Source: Solitalea lacus (GTDB lineage: Bacteria > Bacteroidota > Bacteroidia > Sphingobacteriales > Sphingobacteriaceae). From it: a DNA stretch of 64,000 nt. Location: contig NZ_CP091740.1 of the NCBI RefSeq assembly GCF_022014595.1, forward strand, positions 1,178,001-1,242,000, read 5' to 3'. The notes below the pieces were generated by a model. That model did no database searches, was not told the DNA's origin, and saw nothing but the letters and a program-made list of their open reading frames with translations. Positions 28,239-58,037 of this stretch are shown piece after piece (positions within the stretch are counted from its first letter, which is position 1; each line of letters opens with the position of its first letter). The position numbers and the translations under genes are program-made.

Positions 28239-28805
28239 ATGGAGCAAATGTTAGAAGCAAACATAACGATTACTCATTTTGAAGAGTTTTTCCATAAACA
28301 TTATAAATTTTTATGTCTTGTAAGTGCACAAATTGTGGGAGATCTTGATGTCTCCAAAGATCTTGTTCAAGAATTTTATATAGATTTTTGGAGACGCCGG
28401 GATACAATTCAATTGTCAAGCACTTTTCAAGCCTATGCAGTTCGGGCTGTAAAAAATTTAGCTGTTTCTTATATACGTAAACAGGAATCCCTGGAAGCTA
28501 AAAGAAACTTTCTGGAAACTATTGATTGTTTCGATCCTCAGGCAGATACTGAGAATTTGTTTAATAAAGAGAGCCTTGATACTAAGATCAATGCTTCCAT
28601 TGATAAGTTACCCAAAGAATGCAGAAATATATTTCTGCTGCACAATCTTGAAGGATTGAGCTATGCTCAAATTGCTGAGCGTAATAATATTTCTATTAAT
28701 ACAGTTAAAACTCAAATGAAAAGGGCATATGCCTTTTTACGCACTGATTTAGCTGAACAATCAATTAATTTGTTGATTATATATTTCTGGTTATCAAAGC
28801 TTTAG
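28239..28805 (+). CDS. ECF RNA polymerase sigma factor, module A
   Basis: The 188-residue protein has region 2 (VSKDLVQEFYIDFWRRRDTI) and region 4 (LPKECRNIFLLHNLEGLSYA, then ERNNISINTVKTQMKRAYAF) of an ECF sigma factor of the FecI-like/SusC-associated group. It ends in a hydrophobic tail (LLIIYFWLSKL) that also appears in module B's sigma. It lies upstream of fecR and susC homologues in the same direction, so it probably activates the module when released by FecR. The ATG at 28239 starts the protein. Confidence 0.96.
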   Translation: MEQMLEANITITHFEEFFHKHYKFLCLVSAQIVGDLDVSKDLVQEFYIDFWRRRDTIQLSSTFQAYAVRAVKNLAVSYIRKQESLEAKRNFLETIDCFDPQADTENLFNKESLDTKINASIDKLPKECRNIFLLHNLEGLSYAQIAERNNISINTVKTQMKRAYAFLRTDLAEQSINLLIIYFWLSKL

Positions 28806-28871
28806 AAATAATTTCTTTTTTTCTTAAAAGTTTTGTCACCCTCCATTCTCTATTTCTCGACTTATTTTCAG

Positions 28872-30065
28872 ATGATGAATAAACCAAACAATACCGGTAA
28901 CCCGGAGTGGGAGCAAGTTCTTTGTGCTTTAGCGCAAGGAGATGAAATAAATCCTGATCGGCTTAATCAATTGAGTGATGAAGAAAGAGGATTTATTGCA
29001 GAACTGGTGGATAAAAGACAATTAACTAAGGCGGTATCTCAGCTACATGAAATTGATTTACAAAAAGATTGGCTGGCTGTTAAAACTCAAGTTGATAGAT
29101 TGAATGCATCTGGGAGAGTATTCCAATTAAAGAACTGGTTGTTGCATTATGCTGCAGTGTTAATATTGCCATTAACCATTTTGGGTGCATTATATTTTGG
29201 ATTAAAGAATAATGATAAGATAGCACAAAGCTCTACTGTTGCCCAAAAGGAAGCCGGAGATCGCGGAAAAGCAACATTAATTCTTGGTGATGGGAAAAAA
29301 GTGGAGTTAACCGCTAATCAGGTTATCACAAACTCCGACGGCGCAAGAATTCGGTCTGATTCTTCAAATGCTTTAGTTTATGAGTCGGAGCAAAATGTTG
29401 GTGACAAGGCTAGTTATAATACACTTATAATTCCTAAAGGCGGATCATACAAATTAATGCTGGAGGATGGAACGGAGATTTGGGTAAATGCTGATTCCCG
29501 TTTAAAGTATCAGGTGAATTTTGATGTGACCAAAACCAGAGAAGTGTTTCTTGAAAGTGGCGAGGCTTATTTTAAAGTGGCCAAAAATCCGGATAAACCT
29601 TTCATTGTTCACAATAGAAATATGGACATCCGAGTGTTGGGTACGTCATTTAATGTAAATGCCTATTCTAAAAGCATTCAAACTACTCTAGTTGAAGGCA
29701 AGGTAAAGATAAGTGTTAATAATAGTCAGAATTTGGATTTAACACCAGGACAACAGGCAAGTTTTGATGAGTTAACAGGAAGCCTTGAGAAACAGGATGT
29801 GGATGTGTATTCGTTTGTTGCCTGGAAGGATGACATTATTGCCTTTGATAATGTTACAATGGAGGGCTTAATGGAGCAAATAGGCCGTTTATATGACTAC
29901 GATATTCAATTTAAAGACGAAAGCTTAAAGAAATTGCATTATTCGGGCAGCGCTGATAAGTCAGAGTCTGTACGAGATGTATTAAATATCATTCAAAGAA
30001 CTTCAAATCTTCAGTTCACCATAAAAGAAAGGAGCATTATAATAGAAAAAATGAAGAGAAAATAA
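28872..30065 (+). CDS. FecR-family anti-sigma factor, module A
   Basis: The 397-residue protein has a short cytoplasmic part (about residues 1-88), one membrane helix (YAAVLILPLTILGALYFGL, about residues 90-110), and a periplasmic FecR domain (YKLMLEDGTEIWVNADSRLK, FLESGEAYFKV, PFIVHNRNMDIRVLGTSFNV, TLVEGKVKI). A C-terminal DUF4974 domain follows (FDNVTMEGLMEQIGRLYDYD, ending ERSIIIEK). Such proteins hold the sigma factor inactive until the TonB-dependent receptor signals ligand binding. ATGs at 28872 and 28875 are the likely starts; an upstream TTG frame is less plausible. The gene starts 66 bases after the sigma gene. Confidence 0.95.
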   Translation: MMNKPNNTGNPEWEQVLCALAQGDEINPDRLNQLSDEERGFIAELVDKRQLTKAVSQLHEIDLQKDWLAVKTQVDRLNASGRVFQLKNWLLHYAAVLILPLTILGALYFGLKNNDKIAQSSTVAQKEAGDRGKATLILGDGKKVELTANQVITNSDGARIRSDSSNALVYESEQNVGDKASYNTLIIPKGGSYKLMLEDGTEIWVNADSRLKYQVNFDVTKTREVFLESGEAYFKVAKNPDKPFIVHNRNMDIRVLGTSFNVNAYSKSIQTTLVEGKVKISVNNSQNLDLTPGQQASFDELTGSLEKQDVDVYSFVAWKDDIIAFDNVTMEGLMEQIGRLYDYDIQFKDESLKKLHYSGSADKSESVRDVLNIIQRTSNLQFTIKERSIIIEKMKRK

Positions 30066-30068
30066 TAA

Positions 30069-30098
30069 AGTCGGGCAATGTTGCCTCATCGCCCGACT
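30069..30098 (+). promoter_or_regulatory. Conserved RNA hairpin in the fecR-susC leader, module A
   Basis: Directly after the fecR stop codon lies a 12-bp stem (30069-30080 with 30087-30098) with one A-C mismatch and the hexaloop ttgcct. The same structure, with a shorter stem and loop ttgctg, occurs at 46303-46326 in module B. The following bases (aggtaagttt, taaatca) are also shared, so this looks like a conserved untranslated leader of the susC message rather than a simple terminator, as no T-run follows. Confidence 0.65.
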
Positions 30099-30175
30099 AG
30101 GTAAGTTTTCATAAATCATTTGCTTTGACCGAGCAACAAGGATTTATTGTGTTTAACTCAACCAGTCCAAATCTA

Positions 30176-33100
30176 ATGAAAAAAGTTTACGAAAAAACTA
30201 TTCCAATTTCAAACACATTAAAAGACAGTTTCAAAAAAGCCAGTTTTTTGGTTTTATTGCTTTTTGCCTTTTCTGCTAACATGATGGCTCAATCACTTCC
30301 CAAAGTAAGCCTTAATGTTAAAGGTGCTCAAGTATCGAAAGTTATTGCTGCTCTTAAGAAGCAAGTTAAATTTCATATTGTTTATAATCACGAAGAAGTA
30401 AATGTCCTGCCTAAGGTAACAATGAAAGTAAAGGACCAACCGCTTGAAAAGGTGTTGGAGCAAATACTTACTGGTTCTAATTTAGAATATACAGTACAAT
30501 CAAATACAGTTATCATTGGTCCGAAACAGTTGAGGGATGATAAGGCCTCTGTTGTACGCAAAAAGTTAGCCATATCTGGGGTGGTTGTTGATGAGGATAA
30601 AAGGCCTCTGTATTATGCGAGTATTGGTGAGATAGGTTCAACTAATGGGACTTTTACTGACGCAAATGGACATTTTGAATTGAGCGTATCGGAGAATGCC
30701 GTTCTCAGTATTACTTATTTAGGAATGATTCCTTTAAAAGTTTCGGTAGCAGGTAAAACTAACTTCAATAATATAGTAATGAAGTTAAATAGTGTGGGGA
30801 TAAAGGAAGTAGTTGTATCTACTGGTATTTTTAAAAAGACAGATCAGAGCTTTACAGGAGCTTCAACCACCGTTACCGCTAAAGAATTACAACAATTTGG
30901 TAACCGAAATATTATTACCGCACTTCGAAATATAGATCCTTCATTTAATATTGTTGAAAGCAATGTTTTTGGCTCCAATCCAAACCGTTTACCAGAGATT
31001 CAGATTAGAGGTAATTCAAGTTTGCCTAATGTGAACGACTTACAAGACCAAACGCGAGTTGGATTAAATACCCCACTAATTATTTTGGATGGCTTTCAAT
31101 CTACGCTTCAAAAAATGTTGGATATCAACGAAAATGAGGTGGAATCGATAACCATTTTAAAGGATGCTTCAGCTACGGCTATCTATGGATCAAGAGGAGC
31201 TAACGGTGTGGTTGTGATTACAACCAAGGCTCCTGCTGCAGGTAAACTTAGAATAAATTATCGTGGAGATGTTAATGTTGAGGCTCCAGATTTAAGTGCT
31301 TATAGTGTTTTGGATGCTAGAGATAAACTGGCTTTGGAAGAAGCTGTAGGGTTATATAACAATGCTAGGGCTGAAAATGATGTTCCATTAAAACGTTACT
31401 ATGGATTCCTTTTAAATGAAGTTAATAGTGGTGTTAATACTTACTGGTTGTCCAAACCCTTAACAACTGGAGTAGGTCAACGCCATAACATTCGCTTAGA
31501 AGGAGGAGACCAAACTTTTCGTTATTCGGCGTCTATGCAACTGAATGATATTAAGGGAGTAATGAAAGAGTCGGGGCGTAAAACATATAATGGTACCATT
31601 AACTTGTCTTATACTTATAAGAAGGTAAGATTTAGTAATAATTTAATGATTGTGGACGGAAATTCGGCCAATTCTCCTTATGGTGATTTTAGCGAATACG
31701 TTCGTATGAACCCATACTGGCGAGCTTATGATGAAAATGGTAATGTGATCAAGTTTTTAGGTAATCCCGGAAACCAAGATTATTCAAATCGCTGGTCAAC
31801 ATTGCCAACAAATCCATTATATAACGCAACGCTCAACGTTTTTGATAAAACCAAAAACGCTGAACTAACTAACAATACTTCAATAGAATTACCAATTCTT
31901 CAAGATTTAATTGTAAGAGGACGTGTAGGGATAACAAAAGGGCAAAGTCAAACAGACAAATTCAGGCCTGCCGAGCATACGGCATTTGCAAATTATACCG
32001 ATATCGACATTTTCAGAAAAGGAGATTATAGCTATAGTGTTGCAAACAGTTTGTCATATGATGCATCGGTGAACTTAAGTTATTCAAAAACTTTTGAGAA
32101 TAACAATACATTATTTGGCGGCCTTGACTATAACGTTCGTCAAAGTCAGGCGTCGGGCTATAGTTTTTTGGCGGAAGGTTTTACAAATGCAAACCTCGAC
32201 TTTATTTCAATGGCTCAGCAATATGCTAAGGACGGAAAGCCTACCGGTTCTGAAGGTCTTTCGAGAGCAGTTGGCATAACAGGAAACATAAACTATATAT
32301 ACGATAACCGATACTTTGTTGACGGATCAATGCGTATTGACGGATCTTCACAATTTGGGTCTAAGAAAAGATTTGCGCCATTCTGGTCTGCGGGTTTGGG
32401 ATGGAATATGCATAATGAGAACTTTTTGAAAAACTCTAAAGTGATCAACCGATTAAAGATTCGCGGTTCATTTGGTTTAACCGGTTCGCAGAACTTTAGT
32501 TCATATCAGGCACTTTCTTCTTATCGCTATTATACTGATGATCGCTACTTCAATTGGAATGGCTCTTATTTAATGGGGCTTGGAAACGAAGATTTGAAGT
32601 GGCAACAAACAATGAATTATGACATTGGTATTGATGGTGAGTTTTTGGATAGAAGACTAAAATTAACTGCTGATTACTACATTGAAAAAACCAATGACTT
32701 AGTTTCTTCTGTTAATCTTCCTGCATCTAATGGATTTACCAGTTATATCGAAAACATTGGTAAAATGGAGAACAGAGGTTTAGAATTAAAGGCCACAGCT
32801 TTTCTAATCCGTAATATGGACCGTGCCTTCACCTGGAGCGTTACAATGGCCATGATTCATAATAAAAATAAGATAGTTCAAATTTCTCAGGCATTAAAAG
32901 ATGCACAAAAGGCAATTGAAAATTCAACCGGTGCAGCGCCAAGTACTTTATATAGAGAAGGCTTTTCAACTAATGCTATTTGGGTTGTTCCTTCGTTGGG
33001 TATTGATCCAAGTACAGGGAAAGAGCTTTATTTAGGAAAAGATGGATTGCCAACTTATACCTGGAGTCCAGCTAATCTTGAAGCTGTTGGATCAACTGAG

Positions 33101-33553
33101 CCTGTTATCCGAGGTAATTTCAGTACTATGGTTCGGTATAAGAACTTATCACTGAATGCCGCATTTGGTTACCGCACAGGAGGACAGTTATACAATCAGA
33201 CATTGATTGATAAGGTTGAAAATGCCAATTATAACTATAATGTTGATTCTCGCGTGTATGACAATCGGTGGAAAAACCCTGGTGATAACGCTGCATTTAA
33301 AGGATTATTAGTTACTGCGGCAACCAGCAGGACTTCGCGTTTTGTTCAGGATGAGGGGACTATTAATTGTCAGAATATCAATTTAATGTATGACTTAAGG
33401 TCGAAGTATTTGAACAAACATCTTGGTTTGGATATTCTTTCGGTTTCTGCAAGTGTAGCTGATGCATTTTATATCTCTACCGTTAGGCAGGAACGTGGTA
33501 CCCAGTATCCATTCTCCAGACAGTTCTCATTAAGAATTAGTACAACATTTTAA
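30176..33553 (+). CDS. SusC/RagA-type TonB-dependent outer-membrane receptor with STN domain, module A
   Basis: The 1125-residue protein starts at the ATG at 30176 (a TTG-started extension from 30125 is unlikely). A long signal peptide ends near FSANMMAQ. It then has an STN domain (about residues 40-110: VSKVIAALKKQ, LEKVLEQIL), a CarboxypepD_reg-like domain (ISGVVVDEDKRPLYYASI, about 132-215), a TonB plug (GSNPNRLPEIQIRGNSSLPN, ILKDASATAIYGSRGANGVV) and a 22-strand barrel ending FSLRISTTF. The STN domain is the signalling module that contacts FecR. Together with the following SusD protein it imports bulky ligands across the outer membrane. It is closely similar over its whole length to the module B receptor. 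Confidence 0.96.
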   Translation: MKKVYEKTIPISNTLKDSFKKASFLVLLLFAFSANMMAQSLPKVSLNVKGAQVSKVIAALKKQVKFHIVYNHEEVNVLPKVTMKVKDQPLEKVLEQILTGSNLEYTVQSNTVIIGPKQLRDDKASVVRKKLAISGVVVDEDKRPLYYASIGEIGSTNGTFTDANGHFELSVSENAVLSITYLGMIPLKVSVAGKTNFNNIVMKLNSVGIKEVVVSTGIFKKTDQSFTGASTTVTAKELQQFGNRNIITALRNIDPSFNIVESNVFGSNPNRLPEIQIRGNSSLPNVNDLQDQTRVGLNTPLIILDGFQSTLQKMLDINENEVESITILKDASATAIYGSRGANGVVVITTKAPAAGKLRINYRGDVNVEAPDLSAYSVLDARDKLALEEAVGLYNNARAENDVPLKRYYGFLLNEVNSGVNTYWLSKPLTTGVGQRHNIRLEGGDQTFRYSASMQLNDIKGVMKESGRKTYNGTINLSYTYKKVRFSNNLMIVDGNSANSPYGDFSEYVRMNPYWRAYDENGNVIKFLGNPGNQDYSNRWSTLPTNPLYNATLNVFDKTKNAELTNNTSIELPILQDLIVRGRVGITKGQSQTDKFRPAEHTAFANYTDIDIFRKGDYSYSVANSLSYDASVNLSYSKTFENNNTLFGGLDYNVRQSQASGYSFLAEGFTNANLDFISMAQQYAKDGKPTGSEGLSRAVGITGNINYIYDNRYFVDGSMRIDGSSQFGSKKRFAPFWSAGLGWNMHNENFLKNSKVINRLKIRGSFGLTGSQNFSSYQALSSYRYYTDDRYFNWNGSYLMGLGNEDLKWQQTMNYDIGIDGEFLDRRLKLTADYYIEKTNDLVSSVNLPASNGFTSYIENIGKMENRGLELKATAFLIRNMDRAFTWSVTMAMIHNKNKIVQISQALKDAQKAIENSTGAAPSTLYREGFSTNAIWVVPSLGIDPSTGKELYLGKDGLPTYTWSPANLEAVGSTEPVIRGNFSTMVRYKNLSLNAAFGYRTGGQLYNQTLIDKVENANYNYNVDSRVYDNRWKNPGDNAAFKGLLVTAATSRTSRFVQDEGTINCQNINLMYDLRSKYLNKHLGLDILSVSASVADAFYISTVRQERGTQYPFSRQFSLRISTTF

Positions 33554-33564
33554 TCTAGGATAGG

Positions 33565-35022
33565 ATGAAAAATCTAAAATATATTATCGTTGCCGTGCTA
33601 GCCTTGATAAGCACTTCCTGTAAGGATTTTTTAACGGTAAATCCTAAAACAGAGATGACCCAGGATGTGCTTTTTTCAACAGAAGCAGGATTTAAAGATG
33701 CTTTAAGCGGCGTTTACATTCAGATGAAGGGCTCTGATGCTTATGGTATGGCGATGACCATGGGTACAATTGAGCAGATCATCTCAAGTTGGGATGTGAC
33801 GGCCAATAGCACGCCACAGAAATTAGGTCTTTTTAATTATACGGATGCTGGTGTTGAAGGATCACTAGCCACTATTTATGCTGCAGAATATAAAATTATA
33901 GCTAGCATTAACGCGATTTTGAATCATGTTGATGAAAGAAAGGATGTTTTTAACACACCTGGTATGTACGAAACCATTAAGGCAGAATGCTTGGCATTAC
34001 GTGCTTATTGTCACTTAGACCTTTTGCGCTTATTTGGACCTATTCCTACAGATCCAAGCACTGGAAACATGTTGGCGTATGTTACAGTACTTTCTAAGAA
34101 TCCTAATCAGTTAATTCCTTTTTCCCAATATCAGGAATTATTATTAAAAGACTTGACCGAAGCAGAAGCTCTACTGAAAGATATCGATCCGATTACTCAA
34201 TACTCATTGGTTCAACTACGAGATCCTCGTGCGACAGCTGCGTTCAATCCTGCCGATACTTATTTAGCTTATCGTTATTACCGCATGAACTACTATGCCG
34301 TAAAGGCGTTACAAGCTCGTGCTTATTTGTGGTTCAATAATAAAGAGAAGGCATATGAATGCGCTAAATTGGTTATTGATGCCAAAAATAATGATGGTTC
34401 TGCAAAGTTTCGTTTAGGTACAGCGGTCGATATGACTAACAAGGATTATGTGCTCACTTGTGAACACATTTGCGGTTTGTATGATTTCAATCTGTATACA
34501 AAATATGTTGGAAACTTTGCAAATGGTTTATTGAAAAAAGGTTCGACAGCTACCTCCATTAACACTCAGCTATTTGGCAATACTGGAACTGACATTCGTG
34601 AGGCCAATATGTGGGAGCTCATTACTTTAGCCAATCAATCTAAGTGCTATGTGTTGAAGAAATATCAAATGGTGGAGAAGCCTACCAATTTGGCAAGTGA
34701 TTTTAAGCAGATTCCGTTATTGCGTATCAGTGAAATGTACATGATTGCCATTGAAGCGGGAGCCTCTGCTGATGCACAAGCATTATGGAATACGTTCCGC
34801 ACATCCAGAAATATTGCAGTTACTAATTTACCTGCCGACCCAACTGCATTAAAATATGAATTGTTGAAGGAGTACCGAAAAGAGTTTTATGGAGAGGGTC
34901 AGGCATTTTTTGCCTATAAACGTGTAAACGCACCAAAGGCAAACATGTTGTTTGTTCCAGCTGCAGCTACCGTTAACTACTTAATTCCATTGCCTAAAAC
35001 GGAAACCATTAACCTTAATTAA
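33565..35022 (+). CDS. SusD/RagB-type surface lipoprotein, module A
   Basis: The 485-residue protein begins with a lipoprotein signal (VAVLALISTSCKDFLTVNPK; Cys 19). It shows the SusD helical pattern: FSTEAGFKDALSGVYIQMKG, AECLALRAYCHLDLLRLFGP and LKEYRKEFYGEGQAFFAYKR. SusD proteins sit on the cell surface as a lid on the SusC barrel and bind the ligand. It is 11 bases downstream of susC and 8 bases before the DUF4843 gene. RagB-like relatives bind peptides; that this one does is inference. Confidence 0.96.
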   Translation: MKNLKYIIVAVLALISTSCKDFLTVNPKTEMTQDVLFSTEAGFKDALSGVYIQMKGSDAYGMAMTMGTIEQIISSWDVTANSTPQKLGLFNYTDAGVEGSLATIYAAEYKIIASINAILNHVDERKDVFNTPGMYETIKAECLALRAYCHLDLLRLFGPIPTDPSTGNMLAYVTVLSKNPNQLIPFSQYQELLLKDLTEAEALLKDIDPITQYSLVQLRDPRATAAFNPADTYLAYRYYRMNYYAVKALQARAYLWFNNKEKAYECAKLVIDAKNNDGSAKFRLGTAVDMTNKDYVLTCEHICGLYDFNLYTKYVGNFANGLLKKGSTATSINTQLFGNTGTDIREANMWELITLANQSKCYVLKKYQMVEKPTNLASDFKQIPLLRISEMYMIAIEAGASADAQALWNTFRTSRNIAVTNLPADPTALKYELLKEYRKEFYGEGQAFFAYKRVNAPKANMLFVPAAATVNYLIPLPKTETINLN

Positions 35023-35030
35023 TCTAACGA

Positions 35031-35804
35031 ATGAAAAAAATAAAATATTTCGTGGTGGCTCTGGCTTTATTAGGCCTGGCTTCTTGTAAGGAAGATGATT
35101 ATTACCTCTTTAATGATGTGGCAAGGTTGCAGTTTGGTCCGGATATAACAAGAATTTATCAACCCAGCTTTAACCTGGCAGATACCTTAAAGCCCTATAC
35201 TTTCTATTACGAAAATCCGGATGTAAAGCAGGATACGGTGTTTTTTGATATATATGCTATCGGTGGAACGTCATCAAAAGATCGCAGCTTTACACTTGAA
35301 CAAGTACAGGAAAGTGGTGTTAATAACGCTGTTGCCGGAACGCATTATCTGGCTTTTGCCAATCCTGCGGTTAGTAAAAACTATGTGATTAAAGCAGGTC
35401 AGATTCACAGTTTGGTTCCGGTAATTATATTGCGTGATCCTTCTTTAAAAAGCGCAAATGTAACATTGAAGTTTAATGTTGTTGTTAATGAGAATTTTCA
35501 GCTTGGAGAAGCTAAGAATCTATGGCGAAAAATTGATTTAACAGATCGACTAAGTCAGCCGGCAGCCTGGAATGCATCCGCAACTCAATTTTATTATGGT
35601 AAGTATAGTACTGTTAAACATCAATTCATGATCCAAAGTACCAATCAAAAATGGGATCAGGAATTCATGGCGACGCTTCCTAATGATTATGCTTTGCTTC
35701 AGTATTATACGGGCACACTTAAAAATGCTTTGGTTAATTACAATAATGCTCATCCGGGAAATATGCTCAGAGATGAAATGGGTGACCTGGTTGTATTTCC
35801 ATAA
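35031..35804 (+). CDS. DUF4843 surface lipoprotein, module A
   Basis: The protein has a lipoprotein signal (MKKIKYFVVALALLGLASC) and the DUF4843 pattern: DVARLQFGPDITRIYQP, KPYTFYYENPDVKQDTVFFD, GTHYLAFANPAVSKNYVIKA and VVNENFQLGEAKNLWRKI. It is a beta-rich lipoprotein found almost only directly after SusD genes in Bacteroidota, probably an accessory surface ligand-binding or scaffold protein. It lies 8 bases after susD and 18 bases before the PKD-like gene. Its biochemical role is not established. Confidence 0.93.
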   Translation: MKKIKYFVVALALLGLASCKEDDYYLFNDVARLQFGPDITRIYQPSFNLADTLKPYTFYYENPDVKQDTVFFDIYAIGGTSSKDRSFTLEQVQESGVNNAVAGTHYLAFANPAVSKNYVIKAGQIHSLVPVIILRDPSLKSANVTLKFNVVVNENFQLGEAKNLWRKIDLTDRLSQPAAWNASATQFYYGKYSTVKHQFMIQSTNQKWDQEFMATLPNDYALLQYYTGTLKNALVNYNNAHPGNMLRDEMGDLVVFP

Positions 35805-35822
35805 CTCTAAAGATGTTATCTC

Positions 35823-37352: not shown

Positions 37353-37361
37353 CCATAAACC

Positions 37362-37388
37362 AATGGTGGCAGCTAGTCTGCCACCATT
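37362..37388 (+). terminator. Hairpin between the surface-import genes and the TlpA genes, module A
   Basis: A perfect 11-bp stem (aatggtggcag / ctgccaccatt) with a 5-base loop begins 9 bases after the PKD-like stop codon. No T-run follows, so it may act as an RNA stabiliser or partial terminator. Module B has an 18-bp hairpin at the same place. Confidence 0.65.
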
Positions 37389-37415
37389 AAAAAGCGCAAT
37401 TTAACCTCATAATAT

Positions 37416-38777: not shown

Positions 38778-38779
38778 TC

Positions 38780-40144: not shown

Positions 40145-40228
40145 GAAGGATGAACGATTAGGAAGCGACCATAGTGAGAGTAGGTTTAATAGGGTCTACA
40201 GTTGAAGCTTAACTCAAATATATTAAGT

Positions 40229-45083: not shown

Positions 45084-45107
45084 TAAAATTTTTTTTCATT
45101 TTTTATA

Positions 45108-46295: not shown

Positions 46296-46302
46296 AAAAA
46301 AA

Positions 46303-46326
46303 CGGGCGATGTTGCTGCATCACCCG
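46303..46326 (+). promoter_or_regulatory. Conserved RNA hairpin in the fecR-susC leader, module B
   Basis: Arms cgggcgatg (46303-46311) and catcacccg (46318-46326) pair over 9 positions with one C-A mismatch around the loop ttgctg. Position, mismatch site and loop correspond to 30069-30098 in module A. The following bases caggtaagttt and taaatca are shared too. Confidence 0.65.
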
Positions 46327-46407
46327 AACAGGTAAGTTTTTATAAATCAATCGCTTCTGGACAAGTTGCAAGGATTTAAATTCTACTTTTTAACCTAATC
46401 CAATCTA

Positions 46408-49773: not shown

Positions 49774-49775
49774 TC

Positions 49776-51221
49776 ATGAAGAGCTTAGAGATGAAAAAAA
49801 TTAAATACATAACGCTGGCATTGTTGGGGGTGTTATCAGTTTCTTCCTGCAAGGACTATTTAACCGTGGATCCACAAACCATGGTGGACCAGCAAAAACT
49901 ATATACAACTGAAACCGGGTTTAAGGATGCTCTTACCGGTATTTATTTGCAAATGAAATCTTCTCAACTTTACGGGGAGGCAATGACCATGACCACCATG
50001 GAACATCTTGTTTCTAGTTGGGATGTGGATGTGAATACAACATCAGAGAAACTGAATTTTTTTAATTATACGGATGCAGGGGTAGCAAACACTTTTGAAA
50101 GCATTTTTGGAGCTGAGTATAAAGCTATTGCCAACATTAATGCCATTCTTGATCATATTGATGAGAAGAAAGACGTGTTTAAGCCAGGCATGTATGAAAC
50201 CATTAAATCAGAATGTTTGGCCTTAAGAGCTTATTGCCATTTAGATATTTTGCGTTTATTTGGTCCCATACCTAGCAACACGACCGAAGGCAATATGCTT
50301 CCATATGTTACTAGCTTAACACATACACCGAATGCGGGAGTATCTTTTTCAATTTACCAGCAAGCCTTATTAAAGGATTTAGATGAAGCAGCTGCATTGG
50401 CCCAAAAAGTAGATCCTATTCTTAATTTTTCGCTTGCACAGCTTAGTAATCCAGGGCCGGCTAATGCATTTTATCCTTCAGACAACTATTTAGCCTATCG
50501 CTATCTGCGTATGAACTATTATGCCATTAAAGCGCTTCAGGCTCGTGCCTATTTGTGGTTTGGCAATAATGAAAAAGCTTATGAGTGTGCACGGGTAGTT
50601 ATTGATGCTAAAAACAATGACGGTTCTCTTAAATTCCGTTTAGGAACTAGCGCCGATTTTGCAAATAGTGATTACGTTTTAACCTGCGAACAAATTTTCG
50701 GTGTGTTTGATAACGGACTCTTCAAAAGGAATGATGCTATACTGGCGACTCTGAGAAAAGGAGCAAGCTCAACAACGATTAATACGCAACTTTATGGTAG
50801 CACCGGAAAGGATATACGTGAGGTTAATGGTCTTTGGAAAACGGTGACTGCCAAATACGCTCTGAATAAATATAAGATGAATACAGAGACGTCCACTTTG
50901 AAACAAATTCCATTATTGCGTCTCAGTGAAATGTATTTAATTGCTGTTGAAACGGCTCCTGCGGGAGAGGCTCAACAATTTTGGGATAAGTTTCGTACCG
51001 CGAGAAATCTTGGAGCCTTCACACTTCCAACCGACGCAGCACAAATACGAGACCAAGTTATAAAGGAATATCGTAAAGAATTTTATGGTGAAGGGCAGGC
51101 CTTTTTCGCATATAAACGCGTAAACGCTGCTAAATCTCTGATAACATTTGCGCCAGCTACGGCAACCGTAAATTATCTTTTGCCTATGCCTAAAACAGAA
51201 ACCGTTAACCTTGACCGATAA
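49776..51221 (+). CDS. SusD/RagB-type surface lipoprotein, module B
   Basis: The 481-residue protein carries a lipoprotein signal ending LLGVLSVSSCKDYLTVDPQT. A second ATG at 49791 gives a more compact signal peptide and is equally likely as start. SusD landmarks are TETGFKDALTGIYLQMKSSQ, SECLALRAYCHLDILRLFGP and IKEYRKEFYGEGQAFFAYKR. It caps the module B SusC at the cell surface. It is closely similar to the module A SusD. Like that copy, it ends soon after PMPKTETVNL. Confidence 0.95.
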   Translation: MKSLEMKKIKYITLALLGVLSVSSCKDYLTVDPQTMVDQQKLYTTETGFKDALTGIYLQMKSSQLYGEAMTMTTMEHLVSSWDVDVNTTSEKLNFFNYTDAGVANTFESIFGAEYKAIANINAILDHIDEKKDVFKPGMYETIKSECLALRAYCHLDILRLFGPIPSNTTEGNMLPYVTSLTHTPNAGVSFSIYQQALLKDLDEAAALAQKVDPILNFSLAQLSNPGPANAFYPSDNYLAYRYLRMNYYAIKALQARAYLWFGNNEKAYECARVVIDAKNNDGSLKFRLGTSADFANSDYVLTCEQIFGVFDNGLFKRNDAILATLRKGASSTTINTQLYGSTGKDIREVNGLWKTVTAKYALNKYKMNTETSTLKQIPLLRLSEMYLIAVETAPAGEAQQFWDKFRTARNLGAFTLPTDAAQIRDQVIKEYRKEFYGEGQAFFAYKRVNAAKSLITFAPATATVNYLLPMPKTETVNLDR

Positions 51222-51229
51222 TAGAATCT

Positions 51230-52009
51230 ATGAAGATTAAGAGTATTAAAAGTTTACTAGCAGTTACTTTGGTGTCAAGCGCCTTAGTTTCGTGCCAAAA
51301 GGATCAATTTCAGTTCACCGATGTAGCCAGAGTGCAATTTGGTCCAGTTCAGAGTCTGTTTTACGACCGTAATGCTAAGCTTGCCGATACCACAAAAAGC
51401 TATACGTTCATATATGCAGGAAATAAAACGAGTGACACGGTTTATTTCGATCTCTATGCCACTGGGGGTGTGTCTGCTCAGGACAGAAACTTTACGCTGA
51501 AACAGGTGGATGTTGCCGGAGCAAACAACGCAGTTGCCGATCAACATTTCAGGGCCTTTGATAATGAGTTGTTGAAAAAGAAGTATGTCGTAAAGGCAGG
51601 CCAGGTGCATACCATGGTTCCTGTCGTATTGTTGCGTGACCCTTCTTTAAAAACCATGGAAGTAGTTTTAAAATTCGAGGTGCAGGAGAATGAAAACTTT
51701 AAACTTGGTGAAACGGCCAACTTGTGGCGTAAAGTAAATTTTTCAGATCGTCTAAGCGTGACCCCTGTTTGGAGTAAAACGACTATGAAAAATTATGTGG
51801 GAACTTGGAGCTATGTAAAACACAAATTCATGATCGACCATACCGGTCAGCCATGGAGTGAGGCATGGATAAATGATTTAATTGCTAATGATTATAATCA
51901 ATTATTGACTTGGATTGCCGTAGCCAAAACAGCTTGGGTTGATTATAACAATGCTAATCCATTAAATAAATTAAAGGACGAGAACGGGGTACTAATTGTT
52001 TTTCCATAA
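51230..52009 (+). CDS. DUF4843 surface lipoprotein, module B
   Basis: The 259-residue protein has a lipoprotein signal (LLAVTLVSSALVSCQKDQ) and the DUF4843 pattern: DVARVQFGPVQSLFYDRN, TVYFDLYATGGVSAQDRNFT and VQENENFKLGETANLWRKVN. It is paralogous to the protein at 35031, with good conservation in the central third and a more divergent C-terminus. It lies 8 bases after susD B and 16 bases before the PKD-like gene. An accessory role at the outer-membrane complex is inferred from position. Confidence 0.93.
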   Translation: MKIKSIKSLLAVTLVSSALVSCQKDQFQFTDVARVQFGPVQSLFYDRNAKLADTTKSYTFIYAGNKTSDTVYFDLYATGGVSAQDRNFTLKQVDVAGANNAVADQHFRAFDNELLKKKYVVKAGQVHTMVPVVLLRDPSLKTMEVVLKFEVQENENFKLGETANLWRKVNFSDRLSVTPVWSKTTMKNYVGTWSYVKHKFMIDHTGQPWSEAWINDLIANDYNQLLTWIAVAKTAWVDYNNANPLNKLKDENGVLIVFP

Positions 52010-52025
52010 TTAAAGGATTTTATCA

Positions 52026-53531
52026 ATGAAAAAAATATATACGATAGCAGGGGCGGCAATGGCCTTGTTGGCAATCAGCTGTTCCAAAGATTTAGGCAAC
52101 TATGACTTTAATCCCAAAGAAGTAATTAGCATTGAAGGGGTTGCTAACTCCTATACCGTAATTTCGGGAAGCGAAAAGATTACGATTGATCCAACCCTAA
52201 GCTCTACATATGGGAGCTCAAAATTTGATTGTTTTTGGGGAATTTATGAGTCAAATGTAACAGGATTCAATATCCAAAAGCTTGACACTCTCTCTAAGAC
52301 CAAAACCTTGGATTACTTTGTGACTCAAAAACCAAGTGACTGGACGCTGGTGTTTTGTGCAAAAAATAAGGAAACCGGTTTTGCGCAGTACAAGCGTATT
52401 CCTTTAAAAGTCACTACTCCTTCAGCAGGAGGATGGTATGTTTTAAAAGATGACGGAAGCCAAAGTGATATCGATTTATTTAAGACCCCTACTTCCATAA
52501 TGCCTGCTAGTAAGCAAGAAAATATCTTTAGCTTATACAATGGGAAAAAAATGGAAGGAAAGGCTACATTTTTGAATTACATAGTCGATTATAAATCATT
52601 CGAATCCGGGGTTCTTGCTGCTACCAAAACCTTGTTTGCAGGAACTGATAAGGATCTTTCAGCGGTTAGTATTTATTCTTTTAAGGAGATTAGAAACTTG
52701 GGCGGAATGTTTTATGACAAGCCAAGCCTAATGGTTCCCGGTTTTTTAATGTATCCTTCTCCTTCTAATACTGATTATTTTTTACTAAATAATGGTCAGC
52801 TTCATGGTCTTTCGGCTATTGTTGCTAACACAGGTTTGTTTGGTGGCCGAAAATTAGCTGATGCGGCGAATACTCCTTATAAATTGTCAAAGTACTCTAC
52901 TACCGGCCCTTCTTCTACCGCGTTTTTCTTTGATGACCTGAGCAGTTCGTTTTTTTCGGGAACAGCTTTGGCAAATACTTTAACACCAATGGTTGATATT
53001 GGTCCGTCGCAGGGTAAGCCACAAACGGCAATGAGCGCCAAGAATAATAATAAAAGATTGTTATTTATGGATGGATCATATGCCTATTTTCAGGATAAAA
53101 CAAATGCTAACATGAAAATTTTATCCAGCTTAACATTAAATGCTTCCGCATTTAAAATGGTAAACGATACTGTTAAAACCACGGATAAAATTTTTAATGC
53201 CACCAATTTTGCCCTTTTGCAACCAGGAGATGAAAACATGATTTACTTTGCGAATGGGAACGAGGTCTGGTCTCGTAACTTGACAAACAAACAAGAAATA
53301 AGGCAGTTCATCGTTCCTGCAGATGAGGTGATCACATTTATCAAACATCGCAAATTTACGGGAACAGGGATAGATGCACCGTACTCTTACAATTACGTAA
53401 TGATTGGCACCAAGATAGGGGGGAATTATAAAGTACGCATGTTTAAGAAATCTTCTGGTAACTTAAACACTGCTCCTGAATTCACTCTGGACGGTACGGG
53501 TTCAGTAGGAGACGTGTATTTTCTTAGGTAA
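52026..53531 (+). CDS. PKD-like family lipoprotein, module B
   Basis: The 501-residue protein has a lipoprotein signal (MKKIYTIAGAAMALLAISC) followed by KDLGNYDFNPKEVISIEGVA, the PKD-like family start. The C-terminus is shared with the module A copy (GTKIGGNYKVRMFKKSSGNL, then FTLDGTGSVGDV). It probably sits at the cell surface near SusCD B. It ends 25 bases before an 18-bp perfect hairpin that separates it from the TlpA genes. Confidence 0.9.
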   Translation: MKKIYTIAGAAMALLAISCSKDLGNYDFNPKEVISIEGVANSYTVISGSEKITIDPTLSSTYGSSKFDCFWGIYESNVTGFNIQKLDTLSKTKTLDYFVTQKPSDWTLVFCAKNKETGFAQYKRIPLKVTTPSAGGWYVLKDDGSQSDIDLFKTPTSIMPASKQENIFSLYNGKKMEGKATFLNYIVDYKSFESGVLAATKTLFAGTDKDLSAVSIYSFKEIRNLGGMFYDKPSLMVPGFLMYPSPSNTDYFLLNNGQLHGLSAIVANTGLFGGRKLADAANTPYKLSKYSTTGPSSTAFFFDDLSSSFFSGTALANTLTPMVDIGPSQGKPQTAMSAKNNNKRLLFMDGSYAYFQDKTNANMKILSSLTLNASAFKMVNDTVKTTDKIFNATNFALLQPGDENMIYFANGNEVWSRNLTNKQEIRQFIVPADEVITFIKHRKFTGTGIDAPYSYNYVMIGTKIGGNYKVRMFKKSSGNLNTAPEFTLDGTGSVGDVYFLR

Positions 53532-53556
53532 TGGTGTTTATTTATTCAAGTGATTT

Positions 53557-53600
53557 TTAATTAGGAGCCGGCAGCTTTCCTGCTGCCGGCTCCTAATTAA
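53557..53600 (+). terminator. Strong hairpin between the surface-import genes and the TlpA genes, module B
   Basis: An 18-bp perfect stem (53557-53574 with 53583-53600) surrounds an 8-base loop, between the PKD-like stop (53531) and the next ATG (53691). The position matches the hairpin at 37362-37388 in module A. No long T-run follows on the plus strand, so partial termination or mRNA protection is as likely as full termination. Confidence 0.75.
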
Positions 53601-53690
53601 TCAAAAAAATATAGGATAGCAATCACACTCTGCTAAAAATTAGGAGAAGGGGATCGCTATTGCCTAAAAAAAGCCAAATTTTAAACAACA

Positions 53691-55124
53691 ATGAAGAAAA
53701 AAATTTTAGCAGTTGCTCTGTTGCTTTCGAGCTTCGGTGCATTTGCGCAGGTGAGCATCGTGAAAGGTGTCTTTAAGGCGGAAACAAAAGAGGGCGAAAA
53801 GTCATTCTTTAAAATAAATGCACCGGTTACGGATAAAGACAACCCTTTTTATATCATTAATGATGTTTCGCTTTTAAAGCTGGAGGACGGTGAATTTAAA
53901 GTTGTCGCTACCACTCAGCTGAATGAGGATGGCAGCTTTGCCTTTAAGTTTAAGCCAACTTATGAAGGATTTTATGCGATTGGGCAGGGTGGTAAGGATT
54001 GGGATAGAGGCCAGTTTCTTTTGTATTTGAAACCTGGTGATAATGCGGAGGTTTCTATTAATATGAATAAATTCCATGTTGATCTGGTTGGAAAAAATAC
54101 GCCCGAAAACCAGGTGTTGGCCTCATGGGCCTCATTAACCGAAGAAGTTAAAAACTTGTCCGTATATTGGACCTCTTTTTCGGGAAAAACCTATCGTGAT
54201 TTCTTCCCTGCTTTTGAAACAGTACTACCTAAAGCTGAAGCTTTCAAAAAAACCATCAATACGAAAAACTCCACCTTTAATACTTTAATGAAAGAGCTGA
54301 CCGCTTACGATATGGATAGTTATGCTCTTCGATTTATTTACACACCCCGCACTGTGCATCCGACCAAGGATGAGATGCTGGCTTACTATAAGGGGATAGT
54401 AGTTAAGAATAAATTCCCCAACAACGATATTTTTTCATTGCCTTATGTTAAAACCTTAATGCAACTATATGTTGCATACGCCACAGGTGGCATAAAGCCA
54501 AGTGCTTCTTTGGAAGATAAGCTGGCATGCTTAAGCACTGATCTGCAAAAGGGCGAGTTTCTTTTAAGAGAAAAAGCTCCCTTTTTTAAATATACCGATG
54601 AGCTGGATGACCTGGTGAGTAAGTATGGTAATTATTTACAGACGGCCAGCCAAAAAAAGCGTATTGAAGAACTGCGTCCGAAATTACAAGTACCTAAAAA
54701 AGGATTTAAAGCTTATGATTTTACTTATCCGGATAAGGATGGAAAAATGGTTTCATTAAGCGATTGCCTTGGCAAAGTGGTAGTGGTTGACATATGGGCA
54801 ACCTGGTGCGGCCCTTGTAAAAAGGAAATTCCTTATATGAAAACGTTGGAAAAAGAGTTTCATGGCAAGGATATCGTTTTTATGAGCGTTTCAACCGATA
54901 AATTGGAAGATAAGGACAAATGGCTTAAAATGGTTAAAGAAATGGAGATGACCGGGGTTCAACTGCATGCCGGGCAGGGTACCAAAATCAGCCAGGATTA
55001 TAAAATAAATTCAATACCACGTTTCCTGGTGATTGACAAGAAGGGAAACATCGTATCAGAGGATGCCCCGAATCCTTCCGATCCGAGATTGAAGGATATA
55101 ATTGTGACTGCACTTAAAAACTAA
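53691..55124 (+). CDS. TlpA-like thioredoxin-fold protein (CGPC), module B copy 1
   Basis: The 477-residue protein has a signal peptide (MKKKILAVALLLSSFGAFAQ), a DUF4369-like N-terminal domain (LLKLEDGEFKVVATTQLNED, GFYAIGQGG, NTPENQVLASWASLTEEV), a helical middle and a C-terminal thioredoxin domain. The active site is CGPC in VDIWATWCGPCKKEIPYMKT and cis-Pro in NSIPRFLVID. It should be a periplasmic thiol-disulfide protein. It is followed 20 bases later by a close paralogue, so the pair probably arose by local duplication. The pair mirrors the two TlpA genes of module A. Confidence 0.94.
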   Translation: MKKKILAVALLLSSFGAFAQVSIVKGVFKAETKEGEKSFFKINAPVTDKDNPFYIINDVSLLKLEDGEFKVVATTQLNEDGSFAFKFKPTYEGFYAIGQGGKDWDRGQFLLYLKPGDNAEVSINMNKFHVDLVGKNTPENQVLASWASLTEEVKNLSVYWTSFSGKTYRDFFPAFETVLPKAEAFKKTINTKNSTFNTLMKELTAYDMDSYALRFIYTPRTVHPTKDEMLAYYKGIVVKNKFPNNDIFSLPYVKTLMQLYVAYATGGIKPSASLEDKLACLSTDLQKGEFLLREKAPFFKYTDELDDLVSKYGNYLQTASQKKRIEELRPKLQVPKKGFKAYDFTYPDKDGKMVSLSDCLGKVVVVDIWATWCGPCKKEIPYMKTLEKEFHGKDIVFMSVSTDKLEDKDKWLKMVKEMEMTGVQLHAGQGTKISQDYKINSIPRFLVIDKKGNIVSEDAPNPSDPRLKDIIVTALKN

Positions 55125-55144
55125 GGTTCCAAACGTAACAGAAA

Positions 55145-56494
55145 ATGAAAAAACAATTCTTAATAGGCTCATTATTACTTTCAAACGTTTGTGCCTTTGC
55201 TCAACTAAGTGAAATACAGGGAGTAGTGAGTTCAAATAACAAAGACAAGGCAAAAGGAATAACCCTTGTAAAAGTGGAGGATGGCCAGTATGAGGTTTTT
55301 GCTACTACCGAATTAAATACAGATGGCTCATTCGCCTTTTTAGTAAAACCATCAAATGAAGGTTTCTATGCTATACGGACAAAAGATATGGGTCGTCAAT
55401 TTCCTATTTATTTAAAGCAGGGAGATCATGTAGAGGTAACAATTGATGATAAAAATCATGTTGAATTAGCTGGTAAGAATACGCCTGAAAATCAGGTGCT
55501 GGCCTCGTGGTCGAAATTGACAGAAGAATTAAAAGCAAGATCGATTTATGAGGAGGGCTACAAGAGCAACATGAATGATTTTTCGAAATGCCTTGCCCAG
55601 GTAGCTGATAAAGCCGAAACCTTTAAAAAAGGCATTAACACCAAGAATGCAACGTTCAATGGGTTAATGAAAAAGCTAACCACCTATGATCTGGACCTCT
55701 ATGCGCTTTATTATTTATCGGCCCAAAATGAAAAGCCCAGCGGTGATGGACTTTCTGCTTTCTACAAGAACCTGGTTGTAAAAGATAAATATTCCGACGA
55801 CGATATCTATTTAACCGGAAACGGGAAAACGTTGTTGAAAATCTACCCACGCTTTGCAATTGGTTTAGATAAGCAAACAACACTTGATGAAAGGCTTCAG
55901 TATTTAACAACCAATCGTCAAAAAGCAGATATGGTTTTGGCCGAATACAAGGATATGAAAACCTATCAGCAGTTGGAAGACATGAGGGCTAAATATGGGA
56001 AGTATTTACAAACCCCAAATCATAAAAGGATTGTTGAGGAACTTGATAGAAAACTCCTTATTACCAAAGCCAACTTTAAAGCACCGGGATTTACTTTCCC
56101 TGATCTAAACGGGAAAATGGTTTCATTAAGTGATTTTGCCGGGAAAGTAGTTTTAATGGACATTTGGGCCTCATGGTGTGCGCCATGTAAAAAGGAAATC
56201 CCTTATTTAAATGAACTTGAAAAAGAGATGCACGGTAAGGATGTGGTATTCATGAGTGTTACCATTGATAAGCCTACAGACAAGGAGAAATGGTTAACAG
56301 CTATTAAAGATAATCAGGCGGGCGGCAATCAGCTCTTTTCGGGAAATGAGGACAAATTCGCAAAGGATTATATGATCAGTACAATTCCTCGTTTTGTGGT
56401 CATTGATAAGAAAGGAAATATGGTTCAAATGAATGCGCCGCGTCCTTCTACTCCTGAATTAAAGCAATTACTCCTGGAGGAACTTAAAAAATAG
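55145..56494 (+). CDS. TlpA-like thioredoxin-fold protein (CAPC), module B copy 2
   Basis: The 449-residue protein has a signal peptide (MKKQFLIGSLLLSNVCAFAQ) and a DUF4369-like domain (LVKVEDGQYEVFATTELNTD, GFYAIRTKD, NTPENQVLASWSKLTEEL). The C-terminal thioredoxin domain has active site CAPC (MDIWASWCAPCKKEIPYLNE) and cis-Pro in STIPRFVVID. CAPC in place of CGPC may shift its redox potential. It is a direct paralogue of the preceding protein and lies 58 bases before the aspartyl protease. Periplasmic location is predicted. Confidence 0.94.
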   Translation: MKKQFLIGSLLLSNVCAFAQLSEIQGVVSSNNKDKAKGITLVKVEDGQYEVFATTELNTDGSFAFLVKPSNEGFYAIRTKDMGRQFPIYLKQGDHVEVTIDDKNHVELAGKNTPENQVLASWSKLTEELKARSIYEEGYKSNMNDFSKCLAQVADKAETFKKGINTKNATFNGLMKKLTTYDLDLYALYYLSAQNEKPSGDGLSAFYKNLVVKDKYSDDDIYLTGNGKTLLKIYPRFAIGLDKQTTLDERLQYLTTNRQKADMVLAEYKDMKTYQQLEDMRAKYGKYLQTPNHKRIVEELDRKLLITKANFKAPGFTFPDLNGKMVSLSDFAGKVVLMDIWASWCAPCKKEIPYLNELEKEMHGKDVVFMSVTIDKPTDKEKWLTAIKDNQAGGNQLFSGNEDKFAKDYMISTIPRFVVIDKKGNMVQMNAPRPSTPELKQLLLEELKK

Positions 56495-56552
56495 ACCTGT
56501 AATAGCGGGTAATTATTCTAAAAGATGCTTATTCTGACAAGAAAATATTCAA

Positions 56553-58037
56553 ATGCGTAAAATAGTCTATTTGTTGTTGTTTGGTGTATGGGCCCTTATT
56601 GGTCCTCTCCATGCACAACCTGTGAAATCTGATTCGGTTTTCGTGAAGCTTCAACAAGCTTTTAAAGCAAAAAGTGTAGTCTTATTGGAGCCTGTTCTTA
56701 GTACTGATTTTTCGGTAGGTGTTTATAACAGCCCCATTGCAAAATCGATGTTGCAAAATATAGTAAGCAGTTTTGCAGTTGATTCAATTAAACTGAAAGC
56801 ATCGGAAAAGGTTTCCGGCAAAAACTCAATGCTGCTTATTGTCTATCCACATGGAGAACCGGCTATCACTACCAGGGCCTGGTTAGATGAGGGCAATAAG
56901 TTGTTATACGTTGATCTGTTCGATCAATTGTACGGTTTAAACCGTTATCAGGTTTCTACCTTACAAGCCACCATTCCAATAGAGGTCAAAGATGGCTCTA
57001 TTTTCTTAATAGCTACTATTAACGATAGCAAGAAGCCTTTGCGTTTTTTGTTTGATACAGGCGCCGATGGGATGGCTATGCGAAAATCTACGGCTGATAG
57101 TTTAGGCTTGATCGTAGCTCGTGAGCAAAATACCTCGGTAGTAGGTGGCAGCATGAAAATTCAGGTTTCAACCGGCAATACCATTCATTTCGACAAGTTT
57201 GCTGTGAATAACCAAAGTGTGGCGATTTTTGAGAGCGTGCGGGAAGGTACCGCTGGAATCATTGGGATTACTTTGGCCTACCAATATATTGTAAAAGTTG
57301 ATTTCGATAAAATGGTTATGCAGCTTTACAAGATGGGGAATTACAAAGAAGAAGATAAAAGCGGAACTACCTTGAACATTAAGAACGGAAAAGGAATTCT
57401 TGTTCTTCCTCTTAATTTAAAAGTAGGAGAAAAAGAAGTAACAGGTGATTTTGTATTTGATACGGGTGCCGGTTATTATGTGATTGGTTTTGGCGGTTTC
57501 GTGAAAAGAAATGAACTTTTAAGCAGTGGGTTCAAACCTTATTTTGCCGCTACAACGGTAAGTATGGGTGTGTCATCACCTACGTTTACCGGGAATTTTG
57601 AAAAAATGGCTGTAGGCGCAATAGACCTCCGTAATATTCCGGGAACGTTGAAAAAATATCGTGAGGGGGATGAGTATGCAAAAACTGAAGACGGTTCTTT
57701 TGGCGTAAAAACCATCAGTCGCTTCAATTTTACGATTAACCTTGCGGAAAAAACCATTCATTTAACGCCTAACCAACGATTTAATACCCCGGTGGACTTT
57801 ATGCTAGGTGATAAAATGTTCAGTTTCAATGAAAATGGGAACATGAATGTGATTGCTGATATAGGAGCGGAACAACTATTCAAGCAAGGAGATGTGGTTT
57901 TATCCATCAATGATATTGAAGCTGAATCCTTAAAGAAAGAACCTTCAAGGATTCTGGAACTACAAGCAATTCCTTCGGGCTCTAAGCTTTCATTTAAAGT
58001 TTTGCGGGATGGGCAGGTAATAAAAATTTCAGCCTAA
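56553..58037 (+). CDS. Two-DTG aspartyl protease with C-terminal PDZ domain
   Basis: The 494-residue protein has a signal peptide (MRKIVYLLLFGVWALIGPLH). An N-terminal region of about 120 residues of unknown role follows. Two retropepsin-like halves each carry the catalytic motif: Asp168-Thr169-Gly170 (FDTGADGMAM) and Asp303-Thr304-Gly305 (FDTGAGYYVI). A PDZ-like domain (about 420-494) ends the chain with QGDVVLSINDIEAE and FKVLRDGQVI. It should be a periplasmic or secreted aspartyl endopeptidase acting as a single chain. It is the last gene of module B, followed by a strong terminator. It probably cuts peptides or proteins that feed the import system; substrate unknown. Confidence 0.9.
   Translation: MRKIVYLLLFGVWALIGPLHAQPVKSDSVFVKLQQAFKAKSVVLLEPVLSTDFSVGVYNSPIAKSMLQNIVSSFAVDSIKLKASEKVSGKNSMLLIVYPHGEPAITTRAWLDEGNKLLYVDLFDQLYGLNRYQVSTLQATIPIEVKDGSIFLIATINDSKKPLRFLFDTGADGMAMRKSTADSLGLIVAREQNTSVVGGSMKIQVSTGNTIHFDKFAVNNQSVAIFESVREGTAGIIGITLAYQYIVKVDFDKMVMQLYKMGNYKEEDKSGTTLNIKNGKGILVLPLNLKVGEKEVTGDFVFDTGAGYYVIGFGGFVKRNELLSSGFKPYFAATTVSMGVSSPTFTGNFEKMAVGAIDLRNIPGTLKKYREGDEYAKTEDGSFGVKTISRFNFTINLAEKTIHLTPNQRFNTPVDFMLGDKMFSFNENGNMNVIADIGAEQLFKQGDVVLSINDIEAESLKKEPSRILELQAIPSGSKLSFKVLRDGQVIKISA

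Follow-up and report, generated by a model that had tools for sequence, protein, structure and literature searches.

Paired SusCD operons with thioredoxin-like genes in Solitalea lacus: a recurrent importer variant with a possible proteinaceous cargo

SusCD systems are usually taken for glycan importers. A 64,000-nucleotide stretch of the Solitalea lacus genome (hereafter the window; C1:1178001–1242000 of a single-contig genome of 4.40 Mb) raises the question of why two such systems should each be followed by a pair of TlpA-like thioredoxin genes. Two blocks, A (28239–40144) and B (44511–56494), share one order: extracytoplasmic function (ECF) sigma factor, FecR, STN-containing SusC, SusD, DUF4843, PKD_2, TlpA, TlpA. 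The two eight-gene series of like order and direction had been described in an earlier note made from the sequence alone, and Pfam confirmed the families of all sixteen genes, all on the + strand. Intergenic gaps in both blocks were 2–18 nt from SusC to PKD_2 and 2–159 nt downstream of that. By Pfam, neither block contained a glycoside hydrolase, the glycan-degrading enzyme that marks a polysaccharide utilization locus. With slightly less than even confidence, we read each block as a self-contained uptake operon for a proteinaceous cargo, with thiol reductases and peptidases in the periplasm. The class to which the blocks belong is recurrent and unnamed, a variant of SusCD importers and a larger set than these two blocks.

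The genome itself contained five PKD_2 and five DUF4843 genes, each pair behind SusC and SusD; the cores additional to A and B lie just beyond the window (C1:1255k) and, for two of them, elsewhere in the genome. The core (SusC-SusD-DUF4843-PKD_2) was contiguous at all five loci and was accompanied at all five by TlpA in the same run, defined as same-strand genes with gaps of up to 400 nt; sigma and FecR stood directly ahead at three. The tails comprised two TlpA genes in A, two TlpA genes and an Asp protease in B, three TlpA genes and a trypsin-PDZ protein at locus L006, a transglutaminase-like gene and TlpA at L009, and two DUF5117 metzincins followed by TlpA at L010. Beyond this tail, the L009 run includes a Peptidase_S46 gene (2e-184), after which come two TlpA genes whose products are 56% and 60% identical to A_T1 and A_T2 of block A. 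The same series of S46 gene and TlpA pair was found in a same-genus genome (L084).

Among sampled genomes, PKD_2 was present in 5 of 296 from the phylum and 101 of 251 from the family, own genome included. From the family's 100 other positive genomes, 60 were used, each for its best PKD_2 match; because selection began at the top-scoring end, weak PKD_2 genes figure too rarely, and the loci include four near-identical pairs (L066/L071, L032/L049, L038/L041 and L045/L047). The core was contiguous in 59 of the 60, the miss (L034) being cut by a contig end, and sigma and FecR were directly ahead in 52. TlpA was in the run in 59/60, directly after PKD_2 in 46/60 and present twice or more in 30/60. 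Peptidases detected by hidden Markov models in these runs were Asp proteases (26), metzincins (5) and trypsin-PDZ proteins (4), with any of them in 34; M60 peptidases in L038 and L041, where they stand at +1, and an S15/aspartyl-protease protein in L064 bring the count to at least 37 of 60. Twenty further loci, picked for specific questions and not at random, were excluded from all frequencies. Outside the family, L093 and L094 (one family) showed sigma-FecR-SusC-SusD-DUF4843-PKD_2 followed by TlpA-Asp-TlpA-M16-TlpA, and L092 (another family) showed sigma, FecR and the core followed by TlpA. A PKD_2 scan of named genomes returned three Chitinophaga loci only. Same-strand PKD_2 pairs less than 20 kb apart numbered six in five genomes among the matches listed, window included. 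No paper on the module was found by title or abstract opening among open-licence PMC papers, an absence that carries little weight.

To examine if the TlpA genes were incidental neighbours, Redoxin matches were counted downstream of PKD_2 genes (within 6.5 kb) and downstream of other SusD genes (within 8 kb, since SusD stands further upstream). Across four single-contig relatives, 10 of the 14 PKD_2 rows listed, from 21 matches, had a Redoxin match, against 3 of 150 other SusD genes, the best 150 of 246 (Fisher p = 9e-11). Three genomes of another genus gave 6/7 against 3/150 (best 150 of 240), with 7/7 at 8 kb; Asp proteases followed 2/7 PKD_2 genes and 0/150 of the same controls. Pooled over the seven genomes, Redoxin followed 16 of 21 PKD_2 rows and 6 of the 300 other SusD rows, all high-scoring; the controls being the best-scoring SusD rows, weaker SusD genes are not represented in this comparison. 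In the four single-contig relatives, the four Redoxin-negative PKD_2 rows were L089, with another thioredoxin-fold protein at +1; L091, followed by ABC-transporter genes; L088, a lone PKD_2; and L090, a match that contains a stop and lacks a surrounding core. An unbiased count in the own genome gave a weaker contrast, with Redoxin within 8 kb downstream of SusD in 4/5 loci with PKD_2 and 8/25 without. That genome has 53 Redoxin matches, and 12 of its 30 SusD genes have one downstream; rotated maps gave 1.1 on average, and 12 was reached in 0.2% of them. In the own genome, SusC-SusD-TlpA runs lacking both DUF4843 and PKD_2 were found at L101 and L103–L107, and some of these carry three TlpA genes; SusCD is therefore coupled to thiol enzymes beyond the PKD_2 module as well.

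The pooled counts argue that TlpA is no bystander, and together with the 59/60 runs they led us to reject incidental neighbourhood. TlpA is a real part of the module, yet not exclusive to it. The earlier note had named a finding of merely incidental TlpA neighbours as grounds for refutation, and the survey did not refute it; the coupling does extend to SusD genes without PKD_2.

Block A begins with an ECF sigma factor of the Bacteroidetes family TIGR02985 (28239–28805; Pfam Sigma70_r2 and r4_2; TIGR02985 133.7 bits, cut-off 126.4), followed by a FecR anti-sigma (28833–30065; FecR 3.2e-22, FecR_C 4.3e-19) and a TonB-dependent SusC with an N-terminal STN domain (30125–33553; STN 2.2e-15, Plug, barrel). 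FecR and SusC of this block are listed from TTG, and internal ATG starts are likelier. The block B counterparts are at 44511–45083 (Sigma70_r4_2 6.5e-16), 45153–46295 (FecR 3e-22) and 46408–49773 (STN 2.2e-16, Plug 2.3e-14). STN-containing SusC proteins signal via FecR to an ECF sigma factor, and the three genes are adjacent in both blocks, as expected of cell-surface signalling. Among 67 SusC loci, own loci included, 52 had both STN and FecR, 10 FecR only, 4 neither and 1 STN only. The block A SusC, the only one compared with NCBIfam, scored 605.7 bits against TIGR04056 (cut-off 368.25).

Downstream of SusC, both blocks encode three lipoproteins: the SusD lid (33565–35022 in A, 49776–51221 in B; both PF14322 and PF07980 above cut-off in each block), DUF4843 (35031–35804, PF16132 2.1e-24; 51230–52009, 2e-20) and PKD_2 (35823–37352, PF16407 2.2e-29; 52026–53531, 1.3e-25). 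In an alignment of 66 modules (L034 and L068, having no full core, were left out), the lipobox cysteine was present in 65/65 filled SusD rows and in 66/66 rows each of DUF4843 and PKD_2. Two lipoproteins are thus encoded in addition to SusD, as in a utilisome, and both may well be surface-exposed. When solved structures were searched with the PKD_2 and DUF4843 sequences, a single chance-level match (E 0.71) was all that emerged. A structure model of DUF4843 was too poor for use (predicted local distance difference test, pLDDT, 47). The PKD_2 model, built from five sequences (pLDDT 66), showed a PKD-like beta domain (residues ~34–128) and a beta-propeller (~133–500). Its top fold matches were the corrinoid-binding lipoproteins BtuG1 (Z 22.4, 12% identity) and BtuG2 (Z 22.2), with unrelated propellers reaching 19.7, and Foldseek placed BT1487 first (E 5e-11, TM 0.39 over the model). 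A likeness of modelled fold to BtuG is no proof of a ligand. In the BtuBG vitamin B12 transporters, according to PMC10404256, a surface lipoprotein with a seven-bladed propeller sits on a TonB-dependent transporter, where it replaces SusD as the mobile cap; the present modules do have a SusD, and their modelled propeller is joined to a PKD-like domain.

This fold raises an alternative, in which the BtuG-like propeller captures as cargo a redox-active cofactor or a metal complex (haem, an iron or copper chelate, a corrinoid) and TlpA keeps the metal or its binding protein reduced. Control by an ECF sigma factor and FecR is a classic trait of iron uptake, BtuG proteins and BT1487 head the fold matches, and a TlpA-family gene belongs to an iron-dependent stimulon of Prevotella intermedia, according to PMC10434189. 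However, the propeller fold is common, as the scores of unrelated propellers show, the downstream enzymes are mostly peptidases, and five modules per genome would seem many for one micronutrient. We consider such a cargo unlikely.

The thioredoxin-like proteins themselves appear to be exported thiol enzymes. Block A encodes A_T1 (37416–38777, active site CHPC, Redoxin 2.9e-14) and A_T2 (38780–40144, CGPC, 2e-24), and block B encodes B_T1 (53691–55124, CGPC, 3.6e-21) and B_T2 (55145–56494, CAPC, 1.9e-20). Strong hairpins lie between PKD_2 and the first TlpA at 37350–37420 and 53529–53695, their sequences differing between the blocks. CxPC was retained in 132 of 133 aligned TlpA rows (84 of them CGPC), the remaining row being a fragment, and IPRF was invariant in six aligned TlpA proteins, so that both the CxPC pair and the later proline loop are present. 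The proteins share with TlpA/ResA oxidoreductases the C-terminal thioredoxin-like domain with CxPC (PDB 2lja, 1.3e-41) and differ from them in a long N-terminal part. A_T2 fell below the NCBIfam cut-offs for ResA (84.6 of 170 bits) and TlpA (83.7 of 230 bits). By a crude signal-peptide test, an export-type hydrophobic N-terminus was found in 130/131 TlpA proteins. An AxA-Q site of the Q-rule type, judged equally crudely, occurred in 103/131 TlpA proteins and 25/27 Asp proteases, and was rare in SusD (4/73), DUF4843 (3/68) and PKD_2 (1/68).

Candidate clients of these enzymes were sought among the cysteines of the co-encoded proteins. Over the 66 modules, no SusC column had cysteine in 30% of rows, and beyond the lipobox no conserved cysteine was found in DUF4843 or PKD_2 and one partial column (30/66) in SusD. 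Asp proteases shared one common cysteine (23/27), and metzincins had a signal-peptide column only (3/9). With no conserved disulfide in the importer proteins, the reductases would hardly serve importer disulfides, and that function was rejected as their main role. A broader form of the idea holds that TlpA serves the importer or its peptidases, in disulfide formation or repair, and not the cargo. Co-operonic thiol enzymes often serve co-exported proteins, and the trypsin-PDZ proteins have three columns with cysteine in 4 or 5 of 5 rows. Set against the cysteine counts for the importer proteins, Asp proteases and metzincins, this explanation seems improbable. We infer that the cargo is the simplest remaining client of the thiol enzymes.

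Under the proposed uptake of a proteinaceous cargo, the SusC channel, SusD lid, DUF4843 and PKD_2 propeller lipoprotein would form a four-part surface complex resembling a glycan utilisome, in which the binding lipoproteins would occupy the place of the glycoside hydrolase of glycan systems. Cargo bound to SusC would act through STN on FecR to release the ECF sigma factor, and the freed sigma would activate the importer operon at a leader immediately upstream of SusC. In the periplasm, the TlpA-like proteins would reduce disulfides of incoming peptides, enabling peptidases to cut them for uptake: the aspartyl-PDZ and dipeptidyl-peptidase IV (DPPIV)-type S9 enzymes in view here, and M16, S46, metzincin or trypsin-PDZ enzymes of other modules. 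A peptide cargo, suggested by gene content, fits the neighbouring peptidases. In the levan and dextran utilisomes of Bacteroides thetaiotaomicron, SusC and SusD likewise go with two further surface lipoproteins, as described in PMC7618045. The present modules differ in having no glycoside hydrolase, in the identity of the extra lipoproteins (DUF4843 and the PKD-propeller protein) and in the thiol reductases, often with peptidases, encoded downstream. RagAB of Porphyromonas gingivalis is an oligopeptide importer (cited in PMC7857515). It is also of SusCD type, and the block A SusC matches RagA strongly (PDB 6sli, 4e-52). The importer probably works like a utilisome and carries a RagAB-like cargo; it is not a proven peptide importer. 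In 2020 Madej reportedly presented RagAB as the oligopeptide importer of that species, and to our knowledge the rag locus is without DUF4843, PKD_2 or TlpA.

Several observations weigh against uptake of proteinaceous cargo with periplasmic reduction. The dextran SusC (PDB 8aa4, 5.6e-66) outscored RagA against the block A SusC, so that the closest solved SusC is not that of the peptide importer. Modules without TlpA exist (L020, L079, L085, L091 and the modules of genome G309 in L097/L098), and ABC-transporter genes stand in place of TlpA in L091 and L097. TlpA also occurs behind SusCD without PKD_2 in the own genome, in the 8/25 loci noted above. SusC lacked a detected STN in 10 of the 62 FecR-bearing loci. 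Finally, seven loci (L039, L052, L063, L068 and L072–L074) run on into a GDPD-GH16 gene and then a phosphoesterase/phospholipase C gene; the fusion was assigned by Pfam in L039, L068 and L073 and by similar start and tally in the other four.

The first and last of these points bear on an ordinary glycan or glycoprotein importer, whose TlpA proteins would help secreted enzymes to fold. The dextran system as best structure match, the M60 gene at +1 in L038 and L041 and the GDPD-GH16 gene further down in seven loci are all in keeping with it. Yet neither block has a glycoside hydrolase, the loci with GH16 are closely related (six of them fall in one 11-row clade of the core tree, and the seventh, L068, is not in the tree), their GDPD-GH16 gene stands downstream of the TlpA/Asp genes, and peptidases are commoner, at least 37 of the 60 runs having one. 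We therefore doubt that the modules are glycan importers of the usual kind. That the ~300-residue N-terminal part of TlpA is the working part, as a periplasmic peptide or ligand binder to which the thioredoxin domain is secondary, is very unlikely given CxPC retention in 132/133 rows, although this part makes up two thirds of the protein, is long and diverse (A_T1 and A_T2 are 28% identical overall) and gives a weak DUF4369 match in both blocks.

The recurring combination of SusCD, lipoproteins, thiol enzymes and peptidases hints at feeding on disulfide-held protein pieces. A more specific and distinctly more doubtful extension of the protein-cargo reading is that the modules form a separate importer class with reductive unpacking. 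The core would import disulfide-linked peptides, TlpA and peptidases would open and digest them, and several channels per genome would serve different protein sources, alongside SusCD-TlpA operons without PKD_2. If this were true, many orphan SusCD loci in the family and in Chitinophaga would gain a testable substrate class, disulfide-containing peptides, and periplasmic reduction would become a step of nutrient import. DUF4843 and PKD_2, both uncharacterized families, would likewise be given a proposed role, as lipoproteins of the importer.

Control of the two blocks was considered from the FecR–SusC junctions. Each has a leader on the + strand (30072–30118 in A, 46303–46349 in B), with a hairpin (30072–30095; 46303–46326) followed by the 20-nt motif AGGTAAGTTTTNATAAATCA (30099–30118; 46330–46349), kept in spite of saturated coding sites. 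At up to three mismatches the motif occurred at only those two places in the window (shuffles gave a mean of 0.08 and none had two); it was exact in L081 and near-exact in L030 and L033. A perfect hairpin (at least 7 bp, the arm having no fewer than 3 G or C) was found at this junction in 20 of 70 loci, against 0–5 in 20 dinucleotide shuffles. A sigma-70 promoter scan gave no excess over shuffles (63 vs 56.9; 43 vs 39.0). The sigma factor may recognize the motif as its promoter, and the sigma-FecR transcript may be terminated or processed at the hairpin. The presence of one motif in both A and B argues for control that is at least partly common to the two blocks, which weakens the earlier suggestion that their parts may now differ in signal.

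The history of the blocks was examined from pairwise identities and trees. BLASTP identities between A and B were 45% (sigma), 53% (FecR), 61% (SusC), 60% (SusD), 50% (DUF4843) and 53% (PKD_2). A_T2 was 38–39% identical to both B_T1 and B_T2, which are 49% identical to each other, and A_T1 was 28% identical to B_T1 and, over 127 residues only, 47% identical to B_T2. The TlpA genes of the two blocks have no one-to-one match, in correction of the earlier description. Synonymous rates (dS) were saturated, six of seven A/B pairs being infinite and sigma at 4.9, so the duplication cannot be dated, and the dating proposed with the original description yielded none.

A concatenated core tree of 66 of 68 loci, made by a quick method, placed A as sister of B and B's same-genus orthologues L030 and L033 (100), with Chitinophaga next (83). 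The SusC tree agreed (100) and the SusD tree nearly so, with L079 inside; the PKD_2 tree gave no resolution. In the DUF4843 tree A grouped with Chitinophaga and L042-type rows (92/88, not starred). In the TlpA tree A_T1 fell with rows of other modules, B_T1 with B_T2, and A_T2 with L081. No A core was found among the PKD_2 loci read in the same-genus genomes G299 (5/5) and G317 (4/5), a third such genome, G331, whose one PKD_2 match is weak, lying outside this count; nor were module genes present in the 13 kb upstream of the B copies in G299 and G317. A mosaic locus, L081, has sigma and FecR 74% and 64% identical to B, a TlpA 74% identical to A_T2 and a PKD_2 24% identical to A; its core is distant, and an extra gene of 473 amino acids lies between FecR and SusC. 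This mosaic and the differing gene histories suggest that regulators, core and TlpA genes reassort. Recent tandem duplication was rejected on the saturated dS, the trees and the want of an A core in the same-genus loci read. Duplication as a unit, as first proposed, would at best be an old event, partly overwritten: the SusC and, nearly, SusD trees agree with it, and the DUF4843 placement, the TlpA histories and the unresolved PKD_2 tree do not bear it out.

Three genes within 28239–58037 lie outside the blocks, all on the + strand. After a 632-nt gap downstream of block A is the DPPIV-type S9 peptidase (40777–42957; DPPIV_N 2.9e-81, Peptidase_S9 1.4e-43), followed by a third, shorter TlpA-like gene (43074–44189; CGPC, Thioredoxin_8 7.6e-20). 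The retropepsin-like aspartyl protease with PDZ domain (56553–58037; Asp_protease_2 1.2e-15, two DTG motifs) stands as ninth gene of block B. An M28-family peptidase (26804–27760) lies on the opposite strand just upstream of block A. Further upstream, a gene at 16947–19139 has two peroxidase-domain stretches and is presumably of catalase-peroxidase type. A large protein with BNR, F5/8, Big_7 and MBG repeats (59103–63998) leaves the window edge, and genes resembling it come after block B in the same-genus genomes of L030 and L033.

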